Shown piece after piece: positions 1 through 55,392 of a stretch of DNA of 64,000 nucleotides. The position numbers and the translations under genes are program-made. Position 1 is the stretch's first letter; every line of letters begins with the position of its first letter. Source of the stretch: Micromonospora sp. RHAY321. Its GTDB lineage: Bacteria; Actinomycetota; Actinomycetes; Mycobacteriales; Micromonosporaceae. The stretch covers positions 62,001-126,000 of the forward strand of contig NZ_JAMHIW010000008.1 in the NCBI RefSeq assembly GCF_023896955.1, given 5' to 3'. The notes beneath the pieces were generated by a model. The model worked only from the letters and a program-made list of their open reading frames with translations, did no database searches and was not told where the DNA came from.

Positions 1-30
1 GCCGCCGCGAGCGGGGCGCACCGTGGGCGG

Positions 31-966
31 ATGGCGGAGCGGACGACGACCCGGATCGGCTGGACGGACCTGCCGGAGCGGGTCCGGGCCTCGGTGGAGG
101 GCATCATCGGCGACCGGGTGGTGCAGGCGGTCTCCCAGCCGGGCGGATACTCGCCGGGCACCGCGGATCGGGTGCGCACCGCGACCGGGCGGCGGGCGTT
201 CGTCAAGGCGGTCAGCCCCGCACAGAACCCGGACAGCCCGGTCATGCACCGCGCGGAGGCACGGACGGCCGCGGCGCTGCCGGCCTCGGCACCGACGCCG
301 CGCCTGCTCGGCTGTCACGACGATGGCGAGTGGGTCGCGCTGGTCTTCACCGATGTGGACGGTCGGCACCCGGCCACGCCGTGGCGCGCCGACGAGCTGT
401 CCCGCGTGCTGAGGGCCCTGGAGACGATGGCCGACGCGCTCACCCCGAGCCCGGTGGCGCACGTGCCGACCGCGGCAGAACGCCTGGCGTGGGACTTCGC
501 CGGCTGGCACCGGATCGCCGCCGACCCGCCGGACCGGCTGGACCCCTGGGCGCGTGCGCACCTGGACCAACTGTGCGCCGCCGCCGACCGGGGCATCGCC
601 GCGTTGACCGGTGACACGCTCTGCCACGTCGACGTACGGGCCGACAACCTGCTGCTCGACGCCGCCGGCACGGTCACCGTCGTCGACTGGCCGTGGGCCT
701 GCCGTGGCCCGGCCTGGCTGGACACCGCGCTGCTGCTGGTCAACGTCCGGCTGCACGGCGGGCACGACACCGAGGCACTGCTGCGCCGGCTGCCGCTCAC
801 CGCCGACGTCGACCCGGTCGCGCTCACCGGGATGTACGCCGGGATGGCCGGCTTCTTCGCCGACGGCGCCCGGCGTCCACCGCCGCTCGGCATCCCCACC
901 GTCCGCGCATTCCAGCAGGCCCAGGCCGACGCCCTGCTCCCGTGGCTGGCCCAGCGCCTCGCCTGA
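31..966 (+). CDS. APH-family phosphotransferase
   Basis: A 311-residue protein of the aminoglycoside phosphotransferase / choline-kinase-like fold. The catalytic loop reads LCHVDVRADNLLLD near residue 203, the HxDxxxxN signature of these kinases, and the metal-binding Asp follows in VVDWPWA. The N-terminal lobe has GGYSPGTADRV as the nucleotide-binding loop and an FVKAV strand with the likely ATP-binding Lys. The family transfers phosphate from ATP to an antibiotic or small-metabolite hydroxyl. The substrate cannot be read from sequence. The frame is open to the left window edge, so the ATG chosen may not be the true start. No resistance partner lies nearby, so a metabolic or self-protection role is equally possible. 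Confidence 0.85.
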   Translation: MAERTTTRIGWTDLPERVRASVEGIIGDRVVQAVSQPGGYSPGTADRVRTATGRRAFVKAVSPAQNPDSPVMHRAEARTAAALPASAPTPRLLGCHDDGEWVALVFTDVDGRHPATPWRADELSRVLRALETMADALTPSPVAHVPTAAERLAWDFAGWHRIAADPPDRLDPWARAHLDQLCAAADRGIAALTGDTLCHVDVRADNLLLDAAGTVTVVDWPWACRGPAWLDTALLLVNVRLHGGHDTEALLRRLPLTADVDPVALTGMYAGMAGFFADGARRPPPLGIPTVRAFQQAQADALLPWLAQRLA

Positions 967-995
967 CCGTCGTCCGGGTTGGCGTGCCGAGCTGC

Positions 996-1625
996 CTACG
1001 GTGCCGCTGGCGTGGATTCCAGCCGCTGCGCCAGCTGCGTCAGGTCGTCGAGGCGCAGATCGCCGTCGAGCCCCTTCAGCGCCGCGGTCATCGCGCCGGC
1101 CGCGCGCCCCGCCTCCAGCCCCACCTCGGCGTCCTCGACGACCAGGCACCGCGCCGGGGACACGCCGAGCAGCGCGGCGGCCCGCAGGTAGCCCTGCGGA
1201 TCCGGCTTGCCGGCGCTGACGTCGTCCACCGTGACCAGCACCGGCGCGGCGATGCCGGCGGCGCCGAGTCGGGCCTCGGCCAGCCGGGCGTCGGCGCTGG
1301 TCACCACCGCCCAGGGCAACCCCGACCGGGCCAGTGCCGCCAGCACCTGGTGGGCACCGGGGGTGGCCGTCACGTCGGACAGGTCGTCGTACTGCAACGC
1401 CAACTGCCGCGCCGCCGCCACGGCGACCGTGGCATCGTCGAGCGTGGGCAGCAGTCGGCGAATGGTCTGATCGGCGGGTCTGCCGTGCGCGATCGCCAGC
1501 GCGGCCGCCGGCGCCACGGCGTACTCGGCCGCCCACCGTCGCCAGGCCCGCTCGACGGCGGCGTCGGAATCCACCAGGGTGCCATCCATGTCGAACAGCA
1601 CCGCGTCGATCTCTGCCAGCTCCAC
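996..1625 (-). CDS. HAD-superfamily phosphatase (beta-phosphoglucomutase/phosphatase-like)
   Basis: About 209 residues with the HAD motifs in order: DMDGTLVDSD (motif I, nucleophile Asp and general acid Asp), VVTSA (motif II), the Lys in SAGKPDPQGY (motif III), and VVEDAEVGLEAG (motif IV). The helical cap inserted after motif I is the alpha cap of the phosphoglycolate / sugar-phosphate phosphatase subgroup. It probably dephosphorylates a small phosphorylated metabolite in the cytoplasm. Two in-frame GTG codons compete. The one at 1625 is preferred because a GGGGGG Shine-Dalgarno-like run lies about 7 nt upstream, whereas it almost touches the GTG at 1631. The gene is convergent with the kinase at 31-966. 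Confidence 0.85.
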   Translation of the reverse strand: MELAEIDAVLFDMDGTLVDSDAAVERAWRRWAAEYAVAPAAALAIAHGRPADQTIRRLLPTLDDATVAVAAARQLALQYDDLSDVTATPGAHQVLAALARSGLPWAVVTSADARLAEARLGAAGIAAPVLVTVDDVSAGKPDPQGYLRAAALLGVSPARCLVVEDAEVGLEAGRAAGAMTAALKGLDGDLRLDDLTQLAQRLESTPAAP

Positions 1626-1784
1626 GATCACGCCCCCCGAATACGCTCCGTCCCGAGGATAGATCCGGCCGCCGGGCAGGTGCCCGCCGCCGGGTGACCG
1701 ATGGCGGGAAACGGACCCGGCGGTGGGAGCGAGGGGTCCGATGGCCGCCAGACGCGCGATCGAACCGGCGACATGATCGTTTGC

Positions 1785-2534
1785 ATGATGACGACGACGA
1801 CACTTGACGGCAAGGTCGCCCTGGTCACCGGGGGCTCCCGGGGCATCGGGGCCGGTATCGCGCTGCGCCTGGCACAGGACGGTGCCGACGTGGCACTCAC
1901 CTACCGGCAGAACGCGGAGCAGGCCGCGACCGTGGCGAAACAGATCGAGGCGCTGGGCCGGAGGGCGTTGGTCCTCCAGGCCGACGGCGCCGACCCGGCC
2001 GCCGTACGCGACGCGGTCGACCGGGCCGCCGCCGAGCTGGGCCGGCTGGACATCCTCGTGAACAACGCGGCGGTTTTCCTGGTCGGTGCCGTGGACGATC
2101 TCGGCACGGCGGAGCTGGAGCAGACGATCGCGGTGAACGTCCGGGCGCCGTACGTCGCCGTGCAGGCGGCGTTGCGGCACCTGGGCGACGGCGGGCGGAT
2201 CATCAGCATCGGCAGCAACGTCGGTGAGCGGGCCGTCTTCCCCGGGCTGGCGCTCTACTCGATGAGCAAGACCGCCCTGGTCGGGCTGACCCGGGGCCTG
2301 GCCCGCGAGCTGGGACCCCGTGGCATCACCGCCAACCTGGTCAACCCCGGGCCCACCGACACCGACGCCAACCCGGCGGACGGGCCGAACGCGGCGGCCA
2401 TCAGCGGCTTCACCGCCGTCGGCCGCTACGCCCGCCCCGCCGACATCGCCGCCACCGTCGCCCACCTCGCCAGCCCGGAGGCCAGCTACGTGACCGGCGC
2501 GGTGGTCAACGTGGACGGCGGCTTCACCAGCTGA
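1785..2534 (+). CDS. SDR-family oxidoreductase
   Basis: A classical short-chain dehydrogenase/reductase of 249 residues. It has the cofactor loop TGGSRGIGAG near the N-terminus, the NNAA motif, and the YxxxK pair in LYSMSKTAL with the catalytic Ser in ISIGSN upstream. The Arg in the cofactor loop suggests NADP(H) preference. The C-terminus VTGAVVNVDGGF is typical of 3-oxoacyl-ACP reductase-like SDRs. The start is the ATG ATG pair at 1785/1788; longer readings begin with non-homologous sequence. It is divergent from the HAD gene, with a 159-bp gap between their starts. The substrate is unknown, and it is not part of the fab cluster at 27.6 kb. Confidence 0.88.
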   Translation: MMTTTTLDGKVALVTGGSRGIGAGIALRLAQDGADVALTYRQNAEQAATVAKQIEALGRRALVLQADGADPAAVRDAVDRAAAELGRLDILVNNAAVFLVGAVDDLGTAELEQTIAVNVRAPYVAVQAALRHLGDGGRIISIGSNVGERAVFPGLALYSMSKTALVGLTRGLARELGPRGITANLVNPGPTDTDANPADGPNAAAISGFTAVGRYARPADIAATVAHLASPEASYVTGAVVNVDGGFTS

Positions 2535-2541
2535 GACTGGG

Positions 2542-3090
2542 TCACCCCTCGCGGTCCAGCACGGGGCGTACCGCATCGACGAACGCGATCCGGCGGGTCG
2601 TCCGTACCTCGATGGCGGCGAGCCAGCGCTCCCGGTGCCGCTCACGCAGCGGCACCGTCGCGGCGCCCGGCTCGCCGCCGAGGCGGCGCTGGTCGGCGTA
2701 CTCGGCGGTCAGGCTGGCCAGCACCGACCGGGCCGCCGACGCGACCTCCGCCGGACCTTCCAACAACACCAGGTTGTACGCCTCGTCCACGGCGCGCATC
2801 GCCGCGTACGCCTCGTCGTAGCCGGGCGGTGACTCGTCCCCGCCGGCCTCGACCCACCGCCGGTCCAACCGTCGGTACGCCTGGTCGCAGGCACTCAGGA
2901 ACCCGACGTACGCCTCCCGCCGCAGCTCGTCCCGGCGCGTGGTCCGCCGCTCGGCGTTCTCCTGGCGGGCGACGGTGAGCTGGTGGGCCAGTTGCCGACG
3001 GGTGCTGAGTGCGCCGACCAGCCCGGTCAGGGCGGCGGCGGCCAACGTGGACAGAGAGGTGATCAGCGCGACGGCGACGGTGTCCTGCAC
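2542..3090 (-). CDS. Membrane-anchored protein of unknown function
   Basis: A 182-residue protein. An N-terminal hydrophobic segment (ALITSLSTLAAAALTGLVGAL, roughly residues 8-28) is followed by a long charged, Arg-rich region (QLAHQLTVARQENAERR and onward) likely to be helical or coiled-coil. It therefore looks like a signal-anchor protein with a cytoplasmic helical domain. The start is a GTG at 3090 with only a weak ribosome-binding site. I do not recognise a family. It is convergent with the SDR gene (8-bp gap), and its 5' side faces the proline-rich membrane protein at 3368. Confidence 0.6.
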   Translation of the reverse strand: MQDTVAVALITSLSTLAAAALTGLVGALSTRRQLAHQLTVARQENAERRTTRRDELRREAYVGFLSACDQAYRRLDRRWVEAGGDESPPGYDEAYAAMRAVDEAYNLVLLEGPAEVASAARSVLASLTAEYADQRRLGGEPGAATVPLRERHRERWLAAIEVRTTRRIAFVDAVRPVLDREG

Positions 3091-3367
3091 CCGCCCATCA
3101 TTCCGCGATCAGCTACACCGGCCCTCACCGGAGGTGCCGACCCGACTCGGACGCCTGTGCCGAAGGACCATGCGACGTTTCGGTCGTTCCGTGGGACAAG
3201 CAGGCCACCGCCGAGTTCGGAGGTGCCCTGCACGTCCTGCGAGAGACGGTGATCGGCAGCGGCTCGCAGGTGCGGTGAGGCCTCCGATCCCCAGGTCACG
3301 GGGCCACGTTCGAGGGGGCGGGCTTGGTACAGTCGCGCTTCCCCTTGATCGAATAAAGGACATCCCC

Positions 3368-4261
3368 ATGGCCGACAGCGGGCCTGAACCTGACGCGAAC
3401 CCGATTCCGGTCCCGGATCCGGCTGCCGCAGCGACACCCCAGGACACGCAGGACACCGAGACGGCTCCGGGTACACCTGCCGACCCCACGCCGGCCACCA
3501 CCACGTGGACTCCCCCGCCGGCGCCGCCCACCCAGCCCAGCCACACCGGCGTCATCGTCGCCGCGGTCGCGGGTGCTGTGGTGCTGGTGCTGGTGGCCTG
3601 CGTCGGGCTGGTCGGCGGCATCGTCGTGCTTCGCTCCGGATCGACCCCGGCGGCCAGCAGCCCGACGTCCCGGGCTCCCCTGTTCCCCACGACCGGCGCC
3701 AGTCCCACCGCGAGCGGTCAGCCCGACCAGAGCGAGGAGCCGGTGGCACAGGGGCCGCAGGCGAGCGCCTACCCGGCGGAGAAGATCGAGGACCTGAACC
3801 GGGTGTGCGACGAGGACATCTACTACCCGGAACTGCCGAAACGCGCCGGCAAGGCTCCGCACCCGGTCGTGCTGCTCCTCTCGGACACCCCGGGTCTCCG
3901 CTACAAGGACGACGGCTACTACTACGACCTGGGCCTGTCGGCCAAGGTCGAGCAGACGTGGGCGTCGGAGGACCCCAGGAAGGTGCAGATGGTCGCCTGC
4001 CTCGACCGGGTCAGCACCGGCGCGAAAATCCGCAACTGCAAGTTCGACGACCCCAAGCCGCAGACGCTGCCGCTGGTGCGAACCGGCTGGCGTCTTCGGG
4101 TGTACGAGGCGGCGACCGGCCGCAAGCTGCTGGACAAGGCCATGAACGGCGATGACCAGAAGTGCCCGTTCGTCGTCATGGTCGGTGCCGACAAGAAGAT
4201 CTACGCCGAGGTCAGCGACCGGGCGGCGATCGCGGCACTGCGCAACCTCGTCACCAAGTGA
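3368..4261 (+). CDS. Proline-rich single-pass membrane protein of unknown function
   Basis: A 297-residue protein. Residues 1-60 form a Pro/Ala/Thr-rich acidic cytoplasmic tail. One strongly hydrophobic helix follows (VIVAAVAGAVVLVLVACVGL, about residues 61-80), then a Ser/Thr/Pro linker and a C-terminal extracytoplasmic domain of about 160 residues with conserved-looking cysteines (RVCDEDIYY, VACLDR, RNCKFDD, QKCPFV). The four cysteines suggest two disulfides. The ATG at 3368 is preceded by AAAGGA and a TACAGT -10-like hexamer at 3328-3333. The layout resembles many actinobacterial surface proteins, but the C-terminal domain is not one I can name. The gene ends 48 bp before the left tRNA-derived repeat of the island. 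Confidence 0.7.
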   Translation: MADSGPEPDANPIPVPDPAAAATPQDTQDTETAPGTPADPTPATTTWTPPPAPPTQPSHTGVIVAAVAGAVVLVLVACVGLVGGIVVLRSGSTPAASSPTSRAPLFPTTGASPTASGQPDQSEEPVAQGPQASAYPAEKIEDLNRVCDEDIYYPELPKRAGKAPHPVVLLLSDTPGLRYKDDGYYYDLGLSAKVEQTWASEDPRKVQMVACLDRVSTGAKIRNCKFDDPKPQTLPLVRTGWRLRVYEAATGRKLLDKAMNGDDQKCPFVVMVGADKKIYAEVSDRAAIAALRNLVTK

Positions 4262-49577: not shown

Positions 49578-52394
49578 TCAGATCAGCCGCAGCTCGCGCG
49601 CCCGCCGGACGGCCTCACGCCGGCGGGTCGCGTCGAGCTTGCGGTAGATGTTGCGGACGTGGGTCTTCACGGTGTTGACCGAGAGCGACAGTTCGCTGGC
49701 GATCTCCACGTTGGACAGGATGCTCTGCAGGTAGCGCAGGATGGTCAACTCGCGCTCGGTGAGCGGCTCGTCGAGCGTGCCCCCCGGCTCGGCCGGCGGC
49801 CTGACGCTCGTCTGCTCGGCACCCCGGACCAGATCGCTGACCAGCGAGAAGTGTGCGGTGCCGGCGTCCAGGTGCGCGGCCAGCAGGTCCCGCACCGGCG
49901 GTTCCGAACGGGTGAAGACCCGGCGGGCGCCCTGCGGGCCGGCCAGGTCGAGCACCTGCTCCAGGATCCGCCCGGCCCGACGACCGTCCCCGCCGCGCTC
50001 GGCCAGCACCGCGTCCAGCAGGCCGGCGTCCAGGCGTACCGGCAGGGGCCAGGCGGCGGCCGGCGGCCCCTGCCAGTCGGGCAGCGCCCTCCCGGCCGCG
50101 CCGGCGTCCCCGGCGCGCAGCTCGACCCGGGCCAGCGCCACCGCGAGCGCCGGGGACGCCGTGTCCTCGGTGGCGCCGGCCAGCAGTTCGCGGGCCGTGT
50201 CCACGTCGCCCCGCTCGGCACGGAGGTCCGCCTCGGCGGCCCGCAGCAGGCCGGCCAACTCGGCGGCGGCAGGCCGGTCGGTCAACGACTCCCGGGCGCG
50301 GACGAGCAGCCGCTGCCCGGCGGCCGGATCACCGGTGTCGTGGTGCAGGTGGGCCCGACACAGCGCGGCCACCGCCGCCGCCACCGGCTCGCCGGGCCAC
50401 CCCGCCGACCCGTCGTCACCCGACTCCGCCACGGCGGAACTCGCGGAGCCCGCCGAGCCTGCGGAGCCGGTCACCGGCACCGCCAGGGCGAGGTTGGCGG
50501 CAGCCTCCTCGGGTTGGTCACGATGCAGTGCCACCAGGGCCAACGCCAGGTAGGCGTAGGCACAGTCGAGGCGGCACGACCAGCCCCGGGAGGCCGCCAC
50601 ACCCAGGGCGTCGCGGGCCGCCTGCTCGGCCGCGCGAAGCTCTCCCCGGACGGCGAGCAGCAACGCGGAGCGGCTGGCAGCGACCAGCTCCGTACGCGGC
50701 CGGCCGGCCTCCCGGGCCGCCGCCCGCGCCCGGACGAACCGCGCGTCGGGCAGCGCGCCGGCGGCCAGCTCGACCAGGCCCAGCGCGGTGCCCGTGAAGG
50801 CCCGCAGGTCCGCGTCCTCGGCGGCGCTGCTCCCGCCGACGGCCTGCGTGGGGTTCGGCACACCGGTCGGCGTCGCCCCGGCCGGACGGCTCCGCAGCAG
50901 ACGAGCGGCGGCGGCCCGCACCTCGGCCGGATCGCCGGCGAGGCGGGCCACGGTCAGCTCCAGCGCGGTGGCCAACCGCAGGAACCGGTCCCGACGCGGC
51001 ACCGGCAGGCCGCCCGCGTACCCGGCGGCGGCGCGCAGGTGAGCGGTGGCGCCCGGCAGGTCACCGGCGTACGCCCGCTCGGCGGCGCAGGCCAACGCCA
51101 CCTCCGGGTCGGCGCGGACCACCTCCGGAGGCGGCGACGCCGGCGTCGGTCCGCTCACCGGCTCCGGGTCGTACCTGGTCAGCTCCGGCCAGTGCGCGAC
51201 GAACAGGTCACCGGCCCGGTCCCACCGGCCGGCGGCCAACGCGTGCCGCAACCCGTCGGCCGGGCGGCCGTCGCCGGCGTACCAGTCGGCCGCCCGCGCG
51301 TGCAGCTCACGCAACTCCTCGACGGGCAGCCGGGCCAGCTCGGCGCGGAGCAGGTCGGCCAGCAGGGGGTCGCAGCGGTACCAGGGCGGGCGGGTGTCCT
51401 CCCGGTGCAGCAGACCGCCGGCCCCCGCCAGGTCGGCCAACGACCGGCCGGCGTCGGCACGGCCGGTCAACGCCTCGGCCAGGTCGGCGCAGACGGTCTC
51501 GGCGAGAGCGGTACGGCGCAGCAGATCCCGGTCGGCGGGGTCGACCGACGCGAGCACCTCCTCGTGCAGGTAACCGGCGATCTCCGGGTGGTCACCGCCG
51601 AACTGCCCCACCCAGCGCTCCGGGTCGGGGTGCCCCCGCAGGGCCAGCGCGGCGATGCGCAGCGCGGCCGGCCAACCTCCGGTGCGCTCGCGCAACCGTC
51701 GTACGGCGGCAGCCGGCAGCGGCGCGCCGTGCGCGATGAGCAGGTCGGCCACCTCGTCGTCGGTGAAGGCCAGCTCGTCGGGGCCGATCTCGGTCAGCTC
51801 TCCGGCGAGGCGCAGCCGGTGCAGGGGCAGCGGCAGGCCGGCCCGGGCACCGACCACCAGGTGCAACCGCTGACCGGCGTGCCGGAGCAGGAACTCCAGC
51901 CCGGTCAGCGCCGCCGGGTCGCCGACCCGGTGCAGGTCGTCCAGGACCAGCAGCACCGACCGGTCGGCGGCGGCGAGCGCGGCGGCGAGTATCTCCAGCT
52001 GGTCGGGGCGGGGTGCCCGGTCGGGAACCGGCGCGGCCGGGCCGTCGTCCGCCGGCCCGGTGGCCGAGCGCAGGGCCGCCGCCAGGTACGCCCAGAGCCG
52101 GTCGCCGTCGTCACCGGCCTCCACCGACACCCACGCGGGTCCGGGTCCCGCCTCGGGCGTGTCAGCGGCCAGCCGCACCCAGGAGGCCAGCAGGGTGGTC
52201 TTGCCCCAGCCGGCGGGGGCGGCGACCAGGGTGACCGGTCCCGCGCTGCCCTCGTCGAGCCTGCGCAGCAGTCGGGGCCGCGCCACCACCGGCTCGGGCG
52301 GCGCCGCCGGGCTCAGCCGGGACGCCAGCAACGGCGGGTCCGCCGGTCGCCCCTGTGCCGTGCCGACGCGCACGCGATCCTGCTGTTCCGGCAC
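49578..52394 (-). CDS. Large ATP-binding LuxR-family regulator (MalT/LAL-type)
   Basis: A 938-residue STAND-type regulator. The N-terminal NTPase has the P-loop APAGWGKTTLLASW (about residue 60) and Walker B VLLVLDDLHRVGD. A winged-helix/helical bundle and a long TPR-like repeat region (about residues 400-840, Ala/Leu/Arg-rich) follow. The C-terminal HTH reads LTERELTILRYLQSILSNVEIASELSLSVNTVKTHVRNIYRKL. These proteins oligomerise on ligand binding and activate transcription. Ligand and targets are unknown. It is convergent with the peroxiredoxin pair and starts at a GTG. Confidence 0.9.
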   Translation of the reverse strand: MPEQQDRVRVGTAQGRPADPPLLASRLSPAAPPEPVVARPRLLRRLDEGSAGPVTLVAAPAGWGKTTLLASWVRLAADTPEAGPGPAWVSVEAGDDGDRLWAYLAAALRSATGPADDGPAAPVPDRAPRPDQLEILAAALAAADRSVLLVLDDLHRVGDPAALTGLEFLLRHAGQRLHLVVGARAGLPLPLHRLRLAGELTEIGPDELAFTDDEVADLLIAHGAPLPAAAVRRLRERTGGWPAALRIAALALRGHPDPERWVGQFGGDHPEIAGYLHEEVLASVDPADRDLLRRTALAETVCADLAEALTGRADAGRSLADLAGAGGLLHREDTRPPWYRCDPLLADLLRAELARLPVEELRELHARAADWYAGDGRPADGLRHALAAGRWDRAGDLFVAHWPELTRYDPEPVSGPTPASPPPEVVRADPEVALACAAERAYAGDLPGATAHLRAAAGYAGGLPVPRRDRFLRLATALELTVARLAGDPAEVRAAAARLLRSRPAGATPTGVPNPTQAVGGSSAAEDADLRAFTGTALGLVELAAGALPDARFVRARAAAREAGRPRTELVAASRSALLLAVRGELRAAEQAARDALGVAASRGWSCRLDCAYAYLALALVALHRDQPEEAAANLALAVPVTGSAGSAGSASSAVAESGDDGSAGWPGEPVAAAVAALCRAHLHHDTGDPAAGQRLLVRARESLTDRPAAAELAGLLRAAEADLRAERGDVDTARELLAGATEDTASPALAVALARVELRAGDAGAAGRALPDWQGPPAAAWPLPVRLDAGLLDAVLAERGGDGRRAGRILEQVLDLAGPQGARRVFTRSEPPVRDLLAAHLDAGTAHFSLVSDLVRGAEQTSVRPPAEPGGTLDEPLTERELTILRYLQSILSNVEIASELSLSVNTVKTHVRNIYRKLDATRRREAVRRARELRLI

Positions 52395-53033: not shown

Positions 53034-54266
53034 ATGGCTGGGGAGCGGACGTATGACGTGGTGCTGTTCGGAGCCACCGGGTTCACCGGAGGGCTGACCG
53101 CCGAATACCTGGCCCGGCACGCGCCGTCCGGGCTGCGCTGGGCGCTGGCCGGGCGCAACCCGGATCGCCTGGCCGCGGTACGGGACCGACTCACCGCGAT
53201 CGACGCGACCCTGGCCGGGTTGCCGCTGCTCACCGCCGACGTGACCGACGCCGACTCGCTGAGCGCGGTGGCCGAGAGCGCCCGGGTGGTGGCGAGCACC
53301 GTCGGCCCGTACATCCACCACGGGGAGCCGCTGGTCGCCGCCTGCGCCCGCGCCGGCACCGACTACCTGGACATCACGGGTGAGCCGGAGTTCGTCGACC
53401 TGATGTACGTCCGCCACCACGCCGAGGCGACCCGCACCGGAGCGCGGCTGGTGCACGCCTGCGGGTTCGACTCCGTCCCTCACGACCTGGGCGTCTGGTT
53501 CACCGTCAGGCAGTTGCCCGCCGACGTCCCGATCACCGTGGACGGCTACGTGCGCGCCGGCGGCCGGTTCTCCGGCGGCACGTACCACTCCGCGCTGACC
53601 GCGTTCTCCCGCACGGGGCAGGCCAGCCGGGCGGCCCGGGACCGCCGGGCGCTCGAGCCGCGCCCCACCGACCGACGGGTCCGGGCGGTGCCCGGCCGGC
53701 TGTCCCGCTCGGCGGAGCTGCGCATCTGGACCGTGCCGCTGCCCACCATCGACCCCCAGGTGGTCCGCCGTTCGGCGGCGGCCCGCCCGGAGTACGGCCC
53801 GGACTTCCGCTACCGGCACTTCGCCGCCGTGAAGCGGCTGCCGACCGTGCTGGCCGGCGCGGCGGGGCTCGGCGTACTGGTCGGGTTGGTGAAGGTGCCG
53901 CCCACCCGGCGCTGGCTGCTCGGCCGGCTCGCCTCCGGGCAGGGGCCCACCGCGCAGCAGCGGGCGGCGTCCTGGTTCCGGGTCCGGTTCGTCGGCACCG
54001 GCGGCGGGCGACGGGTGGTCACCGAGGTCGCCGGCGGCGATCCGGGCTACGACGAGACGGCGAAGATGCTCGCCGAGTCGGCGCTCTGCCTGGCACTGGA
54101 CGAGCTGCCGACGACCGCCGGCCAGCTCACCCCGGTCGCCGCGATGGGTGACGCGCTGCTCGACCGGCTCGTCCGGGCCGGGCTCACCTTCCGCGTGCTG
54201 AAGCAGGAGGCCACGACCCCGGGGCCGGAGGCGCCGTCGACGCCGGGGGCCGAGGCGGCGACTTGA
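53034..54266 (+). CDS. Saccharopine-dehydrogenase-like NAD(P)-binding reductase
   Basis: A 410-residue Rossmann-fold enzyme. VVLFGATGFTGGLTAEYLA is the dinucleotide-binding loop, then LRWALAGRNPDRLAAVRDRL. GEPEFVDLMYVRHH and HACGFDSVPHDLG belong to the family that includes the mycobacterial trans-acting enoyl reductase of polyketide lipids. The substrate is unknown; a lipid or polyketide double bond is a fair guess. Two hydrophobic stretches (VLAGAAGLGVLVGLV) could contact membrane. The ATG at 53034 follows CTCTGGGG. Confidence 0.82.
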   Translation: MAGERTYDVVLFGATGFTGGLTAEYLARHAPSGLRWALAGRNPDRLAAVRDRLTAIDATLAGLPLLTADVTDADSLSAVAESARVVASTVGPYIHHGEPLVAACARAGTDYLDITGEPEFVDLMYVRHHAEATRTGARLVHACGFDSVPHDLGVWFTVRQLPADVPITVDGYVRAGGRFSGGTYHSALTAFSRTGQASRAARDRRALEPRPTDRRVRAVPGRLSRSAELRIWTVPLPTIDPQVVRRSAAARPEYGPDFRYRHFAAVKRLPTVLAGAAGLGVLVGLVKVPPTRRWLLGRLASGQGPTAQQRAASWFRVRFVGTGGGRRVVTEVAGGDPGYDETAKMLAESALCLALDELPTTAGQLTPVAAMGDALLDRLVRAGLTFRVLKQEATTPGPEAPSTPGAEAAT

Positions 54267-54291
54267 CCCTCGACCGGGTCGAGGGGGCAGG

Positions 54292-55392
54292 ATGCCCGGC
54301 GTGGAGAGCGACCTGCACAGCATCGGTGAGCTGGCCCGGGCCAGCGGCCTGACCGTCAGCGCGCTGCGCTTCTACGACTCCGCCGGGGTGCTGGAGCCGG
54401 CCCTGGTCGACCCGGTGACGGGCTACCGCTGGTACACCGACGAGCAGATCGCCCCGGCCCGGCTGGTGGCCGGGCTGCGCCGGGTCGGCATGCCGGTGCC
54501 GGAGATCGCCACGGCGGTACGCGCCGAGCCGGCAGCGGTGCACCGGCTGCTCGACGCGCACCTGCGCCGACTGTCGGACGGGCTCGCCGACGCCCGCCGG
54601 GAGATCACCCGGCTCCGCGCACTGGTCGACCCGGCGCCGCCGGCGACCACCACGCTGCTGCTCTCCCCCGCCGAGCTGGCCACCGCCCTCGACGCGGTGC
54701 GCTTCGCCGTCGGCGCCGATCCGGAACTGCCGGTGCTCTCCGCCGTGCTCTTCGACGTCGAGCTGGACGGCGTCCGGCTGGTCGCCACCGACCGGCACCG
54801 GCTCGCGCTGGCCCGGGCCGGTGCCAGCGTCGACGGGCCGCCGGTGCGGGTGCTCGTCGGGGTGGACCTGGTCGACCGGCTCCGCGCGCTGCTCGACGTC
54901 GCCGACGCCCGGCCGGTGCGGCTGACCGTGTCCGGCGCGGACCTGCGGGTCGCGGTGGCCGCCCGGACGCTGACCGGCACCGCCCTGCCGCACGACTTCC
55001 CCGACTACCGCAGGCTGCTGCGGGAAACCGTCGGTGAGCGTCCGGCCGCGTACCGGATCCCGGTGGACACCGCGGCGCTGCGCGCCGCGCTGACCGACCC
55101 GGCGGCCCCCACGGTCGCCCGTGAGTTCGGTGGCGAGTCGCTGGCGGTCACCGTGCTCGGCCTCGACGAGCGAGGTCACCTGCGACTGCTCCCCGCCGCC
55201 GGTCTCGCGCCGGACGGCCACGACCCGAGCGGGCTGCGGGTCGGTGTGAACGGTGGCTACCTGCTGGACGCGCTGGACGCGGCCGGCGGATCGCAACTCG
55301 TGCTGGAGCTGGACGGGCCGATCGCACCGCTGGCCGTCCGCCGCCCCGACGACGCGGACACCTTCTCCGTGCTGATGCCGGTCCGGCTCTGA
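54292..55392 (+). CDS. MerR-type regulator fused to DNA polymerase III beta-clamp domains
   Basis: A 366-residue fusion. Residues 1-75 are a MerR winged helix (HSIGELARASGLTVSALRFYDSAGVL, then GYRWYTDEQI), followed by a short coiled-coil. From about residue 115 the sequence is a sliding clamp lacking domain I: AVLFDVELDGVRLVATDRHRLALA and HDFPDYRRLL of clamp domain II, and VNGGYLLDALDAAGGSQLVLELDGP with the C-terminal MPVRL of domain III. MerR proteins normally carry a small-ligand pocket there. The clamp's DNA-protein binding cleft would be retained, so it may sense clamp-binding peptides or clamp-targeting drugs. The ATG at 54292 or a nearby GTG could start it. Confidence 0.85.
   Translation: MPGVESDLHSIGELARASGLTVSALRFYDSAGVLEPALVDPVTGYRWYTDEQIAPARLVAGLRRVGMPVPEIATAVRAEPAAVHRLLDAHLRRLSDGLADARREITRLRALVDPAPPATTTLLLSPAELATALDAVRFAVGADPELPVLSAVLFDVELDGVRLVATDRHRLALARAGASVDGPPVRVLVGVDLVDRLRALLDVADARPVRLTVSGADLRVAVAARTLTGTALPHDFPDYRRLLRETVGERPAAYRIPVDTAALRAALTDPAAPTVAREFGGESLAVTVLGLDERGHLRLLPAAGLAPDGHDPSGLRVGVNGGYLLDALDAAGGSQLVLELDGPIAPLAVRRPDDADTFSVLMPVRL

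Follow-up and report, generated by a model that had tools for sequence, protein, structure and literature searches.

Regulators of the MerR family that sense drugs bind diverse ligands. Their promoters typically have a spacer of 19-20 bp (PMC9909328), and the available excerpts of the literature on one of them, TipA, describe two start codons in tipA that yield the two products TipAL and TipAS (PMC7762955). The sliding clamp DnaN is itself the target of antibiotics: resistance to griselimycin is described as arising through amplification of dnaN together with the ori region (excerpts of PMC5694481 and PMC8765428), and the producers of griselimycin and mycoplanecin are described as carrying a DnaN gene for self-resistance (excerpts of PMC10817943). 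The latter source assigns to Met362 of the clamp the role of a gate between subsites during mycoplanecin binding and to Arg365 that of a hydrogen-bond partner. The locus presented here joins elements of both settings in one protein.

The window, by which we mean the whole analysed stretch of 64,000 nucleotides from Micromonospora sp. RHAY321, contains an ORF at 54292-55392 (+) that encodes 366 aa when counted from ATG 54292. A preliminary description had read it as an N-terminal MerR winged helix followed, from residue ~115, by the sliding clamp without its domain I. A Pfam search placed MerR_1 (PF13411) at residues 10-78 (E 9.4e-13) and the central domain of the clamp at residues 125-238 (E 4.1e-12), both above the cut-off, and the C-terminal clamp domain at residues 315-365 with 22.3 bits, below the 27-bit cut-off. 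In a profile search, positions 125-367 of TIGR00663 aligned with residues 120-366 while positions 1-124, corresponding to domain I, had no match in the protein; the score of 63.5 bits was below the DnaN equivalog cut-off of 137.65. An AlphaFold2 model built on an alignment of 20 family members (mean pLDDT 83.3, pTM 0.65) gave a winged helix-turn-helix (wHTH), then a long predicted helix (80-112) as in MerR-family members, then a clamp fold; a model lacking a clamp fold there, named beforehand as the outcome that would count against the fusion, was not what we obtained. Searches with residues 118-366 (Foldseek, VIA-align) returned sliding clamps as fold matches (best chain: Z 25.1, rmsd 2.3 over 226 residues), among them structures solved with griselimycin, mycoplanecin A, peptides and Gp168. 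The protein ends in SVLMPVRL, the C-terminal cleft motif of clamp domain III. The protein is a genuine fusion, in which clamp domains II and III follow a MerR winged helix and a dimer helix; with domain I absent it is not a three-domain clamp. The initial reading was thus borne out for the fusion and for the missing domain I. The genome has a single fusion gene and encodes an ordinary DnaN elsewhere. The features are collected in Table 1.

Table 1. Features of the MerR-clamp locus (positions in the window; residues numbered from ATG 54292)
Feature	Position	Strand	Details and evidence
MerR-type promoter	54263..54293	+	-35 TTGACC 54263-54268, 19-bp spacer, -10 CAGGAT 54288-54293; sequence, orthologues
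Operator, perfect 19-bp inverted repeat CCCTCGACC-G-GGTCGAGGG	54267..54285	.	sequence; similar repeats before orthologues
MerR-clamp gene, likely leaderless from GTG 54301, 363 aa	54301..55392	+	-10-to-start distance, orthologues
MerR winged helix-turn-helix	54319..54525	+	residues 10-78; Pfam MerR_1
Dimerisation helix	54529..54627	+	residues 80-112; predicted structure
Clamp domain II	54643..55005	+	~residues 118-238; Pfam PF02767, fold search
Clamp domain III	55006..55389	+	~residues 239-366; PF02768 below cut-off, TIGR00663, fold search, cleft conservation

The DNA at 54266-54292 had been singled out as the place to look for a MerR operator, and the promoter does span this stretch, starting at 54263. 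It was recovered with 0 mismatches in searches of the organism's own genome and of 31 genomes, and the reversed control of the 31-genome search gave 0 matches. As in the MerR family, a dyad operator lies inside a promoter with a 19-bp spacer and is conserved in orthologues; since the operator precedes the gene across the family, the promoter is predicted to be autoregulated, as in the TipA class. The stop codon of the upstream gene overlaps the -35 box. GTG 54301 lies 7 nt past the -10 box, and the distance from the -10 box to the start codon is 6-8 nt in orthologues and in many target genes. Because ATG 54292, the start assumed at first, overlaps the -10 box, and because many of the orthologues, which retain the promoter, have GTG only, the gene probably starts leaderless at GTG 54301.

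The gene is flanked by a saccharopine dehydrogenase-like gene and serS (names read from translations). These two look like bystanders rather than targets: they are conserved neighbours in Micromonospora and were not found within 1.5-6 kb flanks of the gene in the other lineages examined. Elsewhere in the window, the translation of a 938-aa ORF at 49578-52394 (-) resembles a large LuxR-type regulator that has an ATPase at its N-terminus.

Matches to the protein occurred in 58 of 61 genomes of a Micromonospora sample and in 68 of 150 genomes of a family-level sample (E 1e-25). At the class level, with at most five candidates scored per genome, at least 30 of 394 genomes had a match spanning both halves. 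Several relatives are named just 'MerR family transcriptional regulator' in plasmid records. We aligned 58 full-length homologues, leaving out partial, frameshifted, N-containing and oddly long genes as well as unrelated MerR genes (for example L024, L025, L030, L048, L058, L061, L062 and L070). Clade 1 comprises 45 members with 40-100% identity to the window protein, among them Micromonospora, Actinoplanes and Streptomyces-genus loci; clade 2 comprises 13 more divergent members (29-36%). One clade-2 gene on plasmid pADI95-16b (L094), followed by a TPR-like partner, lies ~2.5 kb downstream of dnaE and a gene with Y-family polymerase domains (1-3481 of that locus). In two Streptomyces-genus loci (L185 and L190) the MerR-clamp gene looks frameshifted and the promoter is retained, and therefore the system seems to be sometimes lost. 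Carriage by phages was considered and rejected, as none of the 10 matching phage records covered 80% of the query and their matches lay in the MerR part.

The preliminary description also held that the cleft between domains II and III is retained. Using a mutant E. coli clamp entry (6fvm) as the reference, we compared 22 positions, which we take to form the cleft of E. coli DnaN, with all remaining aligned positions. Identity to E. coli DnaN was 62% in the cleft versus 19% elsewhere for clade 1 (n=45) and 47% versus 13% for clade 2 (n=13), and none of 2000 random position sets, evaluated on every third member, reached the observed cleft identity in either clade. Position 346 of 6fvm is presumably engineered; with this position excluded and all members used, the values were 60% versus 19% and 44% versus 13%, respectively, and 0 of 10000 random sets reached them. 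Allowing similar residues weakened the signal of clade 2 (58% versus 29%; 2 of 2000 random sets), and with the host DnaN as reference cleft identity across all 58 members was 57%, against 22% at other positions. Met362 and Pro363 are invariant (58/58), and Arg365 is present in 41 of the 45 clade-1 members. The clamp-binding-motif cleft is thus predicted, from residue conservation, to be present. The early reading was borne out here too, and conservation in the cleft is much higher than in the remainder of the domain. Loss of cleft residues across homologues, the second outcome named beforehand as counting against that reading, was not seen in clade 1 but was seen in part in clade 2, which retains the TDRxR, FP and MP parts and has lost Tyr323, mostly Arg246 and often Arg365. 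Because of these losses the ligand of clade 2 may differ. At E. coli position 174, 57 of 58 members have Arg, and since the host DnaN has the same residue (TDRYR), the half clamp looks descended from an actinobacterial clamp. We also considered the loss of tyrosines 153/154, which presumably contact DNA in the E. coli clamp, as proof of lost sliding on DNA, and rejected it since this Pro-containing segment is also found in the host DnaN.

Many relatives could produce the clamp half on its own. Defining an internal start as an in-frame ATG behind GGAG, GAGG or AGGA at Shine-Dalgarno distance, we found it at one alignment position in 23 of 45 clade-1 genes, compared with at most 3 genes at any other position. 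The position corresponds to query residue 118, where the clamp half begins. With GTG allowed, the count rose to 29 of 45 (next-best position: 10), and 30 of 45 genes had an internal ATG or GTG start within residues 110-123. In a second set, which overlaps the first in some genomes and is not fully independent, an internal ATG was present in 17 and an ATG or GTG in 22 of the 28 genes read (29 loci, of which L167 had no readable start; the 28 include the broken genes of L185 and L190), and all 13 unbroken Streptomyces-genus genes had the internal start. It is absent from the window gene and its subclade, and clade 2 has it in one of 13 genes.

The genome of the window organism was searched with a 21-base operator, allowing up to 3 mismatches, which gave 24 matches compared with 7 in the reversed control. 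Two operators were perfect, that of the regulator gene itself and that ahead of a gene for a TPR-like protein of 168 aa, and an operator with 1 mismatch precedes an MFS transporter gene; these three genes are the organism's clear predicted targets. A pattern of promoter plus start codon had matches in 25 of 31 genomes (reversed control: 0). The six genomes without a match were four of the same family that lack a strong homologue and two that bear the gene (G045 and G008). Among 61 Micromonospora genomes, matches with up to 2 mismatches were obtained in 59 and none in the reversed control, and all 58 gene-bearing genomes had a site. The three genomes without a detected gene were G641 and G665, which had neither a site at this threshold nor a site at oriC, and G673, an assembly of 590 contigs, which had sites and a 4-mismatch copy at oriC.

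When matches were classed on the basis of their location and of what the following gene was homologous to, 148 of the 150 operator matches listed (54 Micromonospora genomes) fell before six target classes: the regulator itself (54, one of them the opposite-strand reading of the same palindrome), MFS transporter B (31), the dnaA-dnaN region (26), a TPR-like gene (17), a YunG gene (12, including L285 on a weak match with E 3e-8 over 31 residues) and MFS transporter G (8); two matches (L259/L312 and L271) were left unclassified. Both MFS families and the YunG family pass the Pfam cut-offs; the TPR matches do not, hence the label 'TPR-like'. In 61 Streptomyces genomes, searched with a pattern fitted to that genus's own-gene promoter, 15 had one site each, all at the gene's own promoter (control: 1 match).

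The neighbourhood of the regulator in other lineages points to the same partners. A TPR-like gene lies directly downstream of it in 14 of 15 clade-2-type loci (all except L074; the match in L069 is short) and also in three plasmid loci, and one such adjacent protein is 49% identical to the TPR-like protein of the window genome, whose gene is far from the regulator yet carries its operator. Of 18 clade-1 loci of other lineages, two carry a homologue of mfsG immediately after the regulator (L059, 50% identity; L061, 45%) and one has a transporter-B-like MFS gene just upstream of it (L043, 35%). The same kinds of partner are thus tied to the regulator through a shared operator in one lineage and through neighbouring position in others, and three targets are supported independently. 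The MFS proteins may be drug exporters; for the TPR-like and YunG genes a part in resistance to clamp drugs is not obvious. A second TPR-like subtype, nearer to the plasmid proteins of L092 and L093, also carries the operator in some Micromonospora genomes (L253, L254, L260 and L268), and the YunG-family protein, a recurrent operator target, is read together with a NUDIX domain in L175.

Second DnaN-like genes, 41-77% identical to the DnaN of the window organism, were noticed in six actinomycete genomes (G502:C1:8288276, G603:C2:30900, G636:C1:708685, G657:C18:118622, G658:C1:2030268 and G582:C63:12519) and are possible self-resistance copies against clamp drugs. As targets of the regulator these six copies were rejected: no operator was found in the ~1.2 kb upstream of them, the best matches having 7-9 mismatches.

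In the dnaA-dnaN region, 59 of 66 Micromonospora genomes have the element on the same strand with up to 5 mismatches, 688-714 bp upstream of the dnaN start, and the next-best same-strand match per region has 6-9 mismatches. The operator is perfect in eight Micromonospora genomes, for instance at L127. At the corresponding locus of the window organism (L075) the order is the end of dnaA, a terminator-like hairpin (756-783; 1 found versus a shuffle mean of 0.5), the promoter (811-841) and DnaA-box-like repeats. A gene beginning directly behind this promoter was considered and set aside: the short ORFs at that place differ in length between genomes (60, 84, 95 and 146 aa). No recognisable oriC site was present in 5 of 63 gene-bearing Micromonospora genomes (G015, G636, G639, G650 and G662), and 14 genomes from other genera yielded no copy of the element (best: 7-9 mismatches). 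The window organism has this operator with 3 mismatches and a poor right arm; in it and its close relatives, whose DnaN is ~97-98% identical to its own, the right arm is degenerate, mostly with 3-5 mismatches in all, and control of dnaN in these organisms is therefore doubtful.

We lean, with modest confidence, towards an autoregulated sensor of the TipA type that also acts as a decoy for compounds occupying the clamp cleft, coupled to efflux and sometimes to dnaN. From the sequences we infer a course of events as follows. Without ligand, a regulator dimer would occupy the poorly used promoter with its 19-bp spacer. A cleft-occupying compound, such as a cyclic depsipeptide of the griselimycin/mycoplanecin type or a similar clamp inhibitor, would bind domains II/III, the DNA distortion usual for MerR proteins would switch the promoter on, and more regulator would be made. 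In many relatives the internal start would additionally supply clamp halves on their own, which would bind up the compound and so protect the genuine clamp. In Micromonospora the operator would also bring in two MFS transporters, taken here as exporters, together with the TPR-like and YunG genes. In most Micromonospora genomes examined, the operator behind dnaA, from which transcription would run through oriC to dnaN, could add an arm of target overproduction. The domain with the cleft, the autoregulation, the likely decoy, the transporters and the dnaN-facing promoter all fit a function in coping with cleft-occupying compounds.

The retained cleft is also the docking site of clamp-binding motifs, and the regulator might instead sense endogenous clamp-binding proteins or peptides (polymerases, the mutasome, a phage clamp inhibitor), report the state of replication or repair, and adjust dnaN and other genes. 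Such a function would fit the operator that borders oriC and points to dnaN in 59 of 66 Micromonospora genomes, and also the location of one clade-2 plasmid homologue near dnaE and a Y-family polymerase gene. However, the regulon includes two MFS families, one of them encoded immediately after the regulator in two genomes from a different family, Streptomyces shows the gene's own promoter only, and the site facing dnaN has decayed in the window organism and its near relatives. We regard this explanation as unlikely; of the two roles put forward in the preliminary description, the regulon and the internal start lead us to favour the sensing of clamp-targeting compounds over that of replication or repair state.

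If the clamp half had been turned into an all-purpose scaffold for binding drugs, its ligand would be unrelated to clamps and the cleft conserved for structural reasons. Transporters in the regulon would suit any toxic compound, clade 2 has lost several cleft side chains, and a wide ligand range is in keeping with what is generally known of MerR drug sensors. Yet in each of the two clades the cleft is conserved ~3 times better than the other positions of the domain, the gate Met is retained, as is Arg365 in clade 1, and the dnaN-facing operator is left unexplained, so that we consider such a scaffold improbable. A regulator of replication initiation or clamp level at oriC, with all remaining targets secondary, would account for an operator placed after the terminator-like hairpin at the dnaA end and leading through DnaA-box-like repeats to dnaN, but it is very improbable given that the site was not found in 14 other-genus genomes although the regulator is far more widely spread, and that five gene-bearing Micromonospora genomes lack the site.

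Returning to a sensor of cleft-occupying compounds, a broader proposal can be put forward tentatively, and we place it somewhat short of an even chance: actinomycetes may possess a dedicated and widespread defence against natural products that attack the clamp, in which a regulator made of half the target senses the compound and releases decoys, and to which Micromonospora adds exporters and the clamp gene at the edge of oriC. If this were true, the wide spread of the system would mean that antibiotics directed at the clamp are frequent in soil and no mere oddities. The regulator could then serve as a biosensor for them, and a reporter driven by its promoter would offer a convenient way to screen for new clamp inhibitors. 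The target of a drug would here have become the sensor for it, equipped with a decoy arm like that of TipA, and the regulon would take in transporters as well as, in relatives, the gene for the target next to the replication origin. Two questions become testable through the MerR-clamp regulator: by what means other than amplifying dnaN bacteria withstand clamp inhibitors, and how common clamp-targeting natural products are.

Compared with known systems, the protein comes closest in layout to TipA, for which excerpts of PMC7762955 describe a MerR wHTH, a coiled coil, a C-terminal ligand domain and an autoregulated promoter. Many MerR-clamp relatives share with tipA an internal start from which the ligand domain would be made by itself. 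As part of the explanation we lean towards, we think it slightly favoured that the regulator works in the manner of TipA. It is not a member of the TipA class, because its C-terminal domain differs, consisting of clamp domains II/III and not of TipAS (PF07739, which is absent among the six Pfam matches to the protein at E up to 10), and because the window gene lacks a second start. The wider predicted regulon of the Micromonospora members is a further difference. With DnaN the protein shares domains II/III with their protein-docking cleft and a fold match of Z ~25; unlike DnaN, it lacks domain I, scores below the cut-off, is fused to a DNA-binding regulator and occurs in a genome that has its own DnaN.

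GriR and MypR of the griselimycin and mycoplanecin producers are likewise clamp homologues that could take up the antibiotic, and the excerpts of PMC10817943 present them as DnaN-encoding genes of biosynthetic clusters. The MerR-clamp protein, in contrast, is half a clamp within a regulator and not a complete second DnaN of a producer cluster, and its gene in the window is flanked by the dehydrogenase-like gene and serS. MerR multidrug regulators of the BmrR type resemble it in their drug-sensing architecture (PDB matches to the wHTH) and in having transporter targets. Their C-terminal ligand domain, as exemplified by that of BmrR, presumably differs from clamp domains II/III, whereas the ligand domain of the MerR-clamp protein derives from a drug target. 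Among the matches listed from the open-licence PMC literature, mostly titles and the beginnings of abstracts, there was no report of a MerR-clamp fusion. MerR drug sensors as a kind are already known; what appears to be new here is a predicted autoregulated one that would use the drug target itself as its ligand domain.
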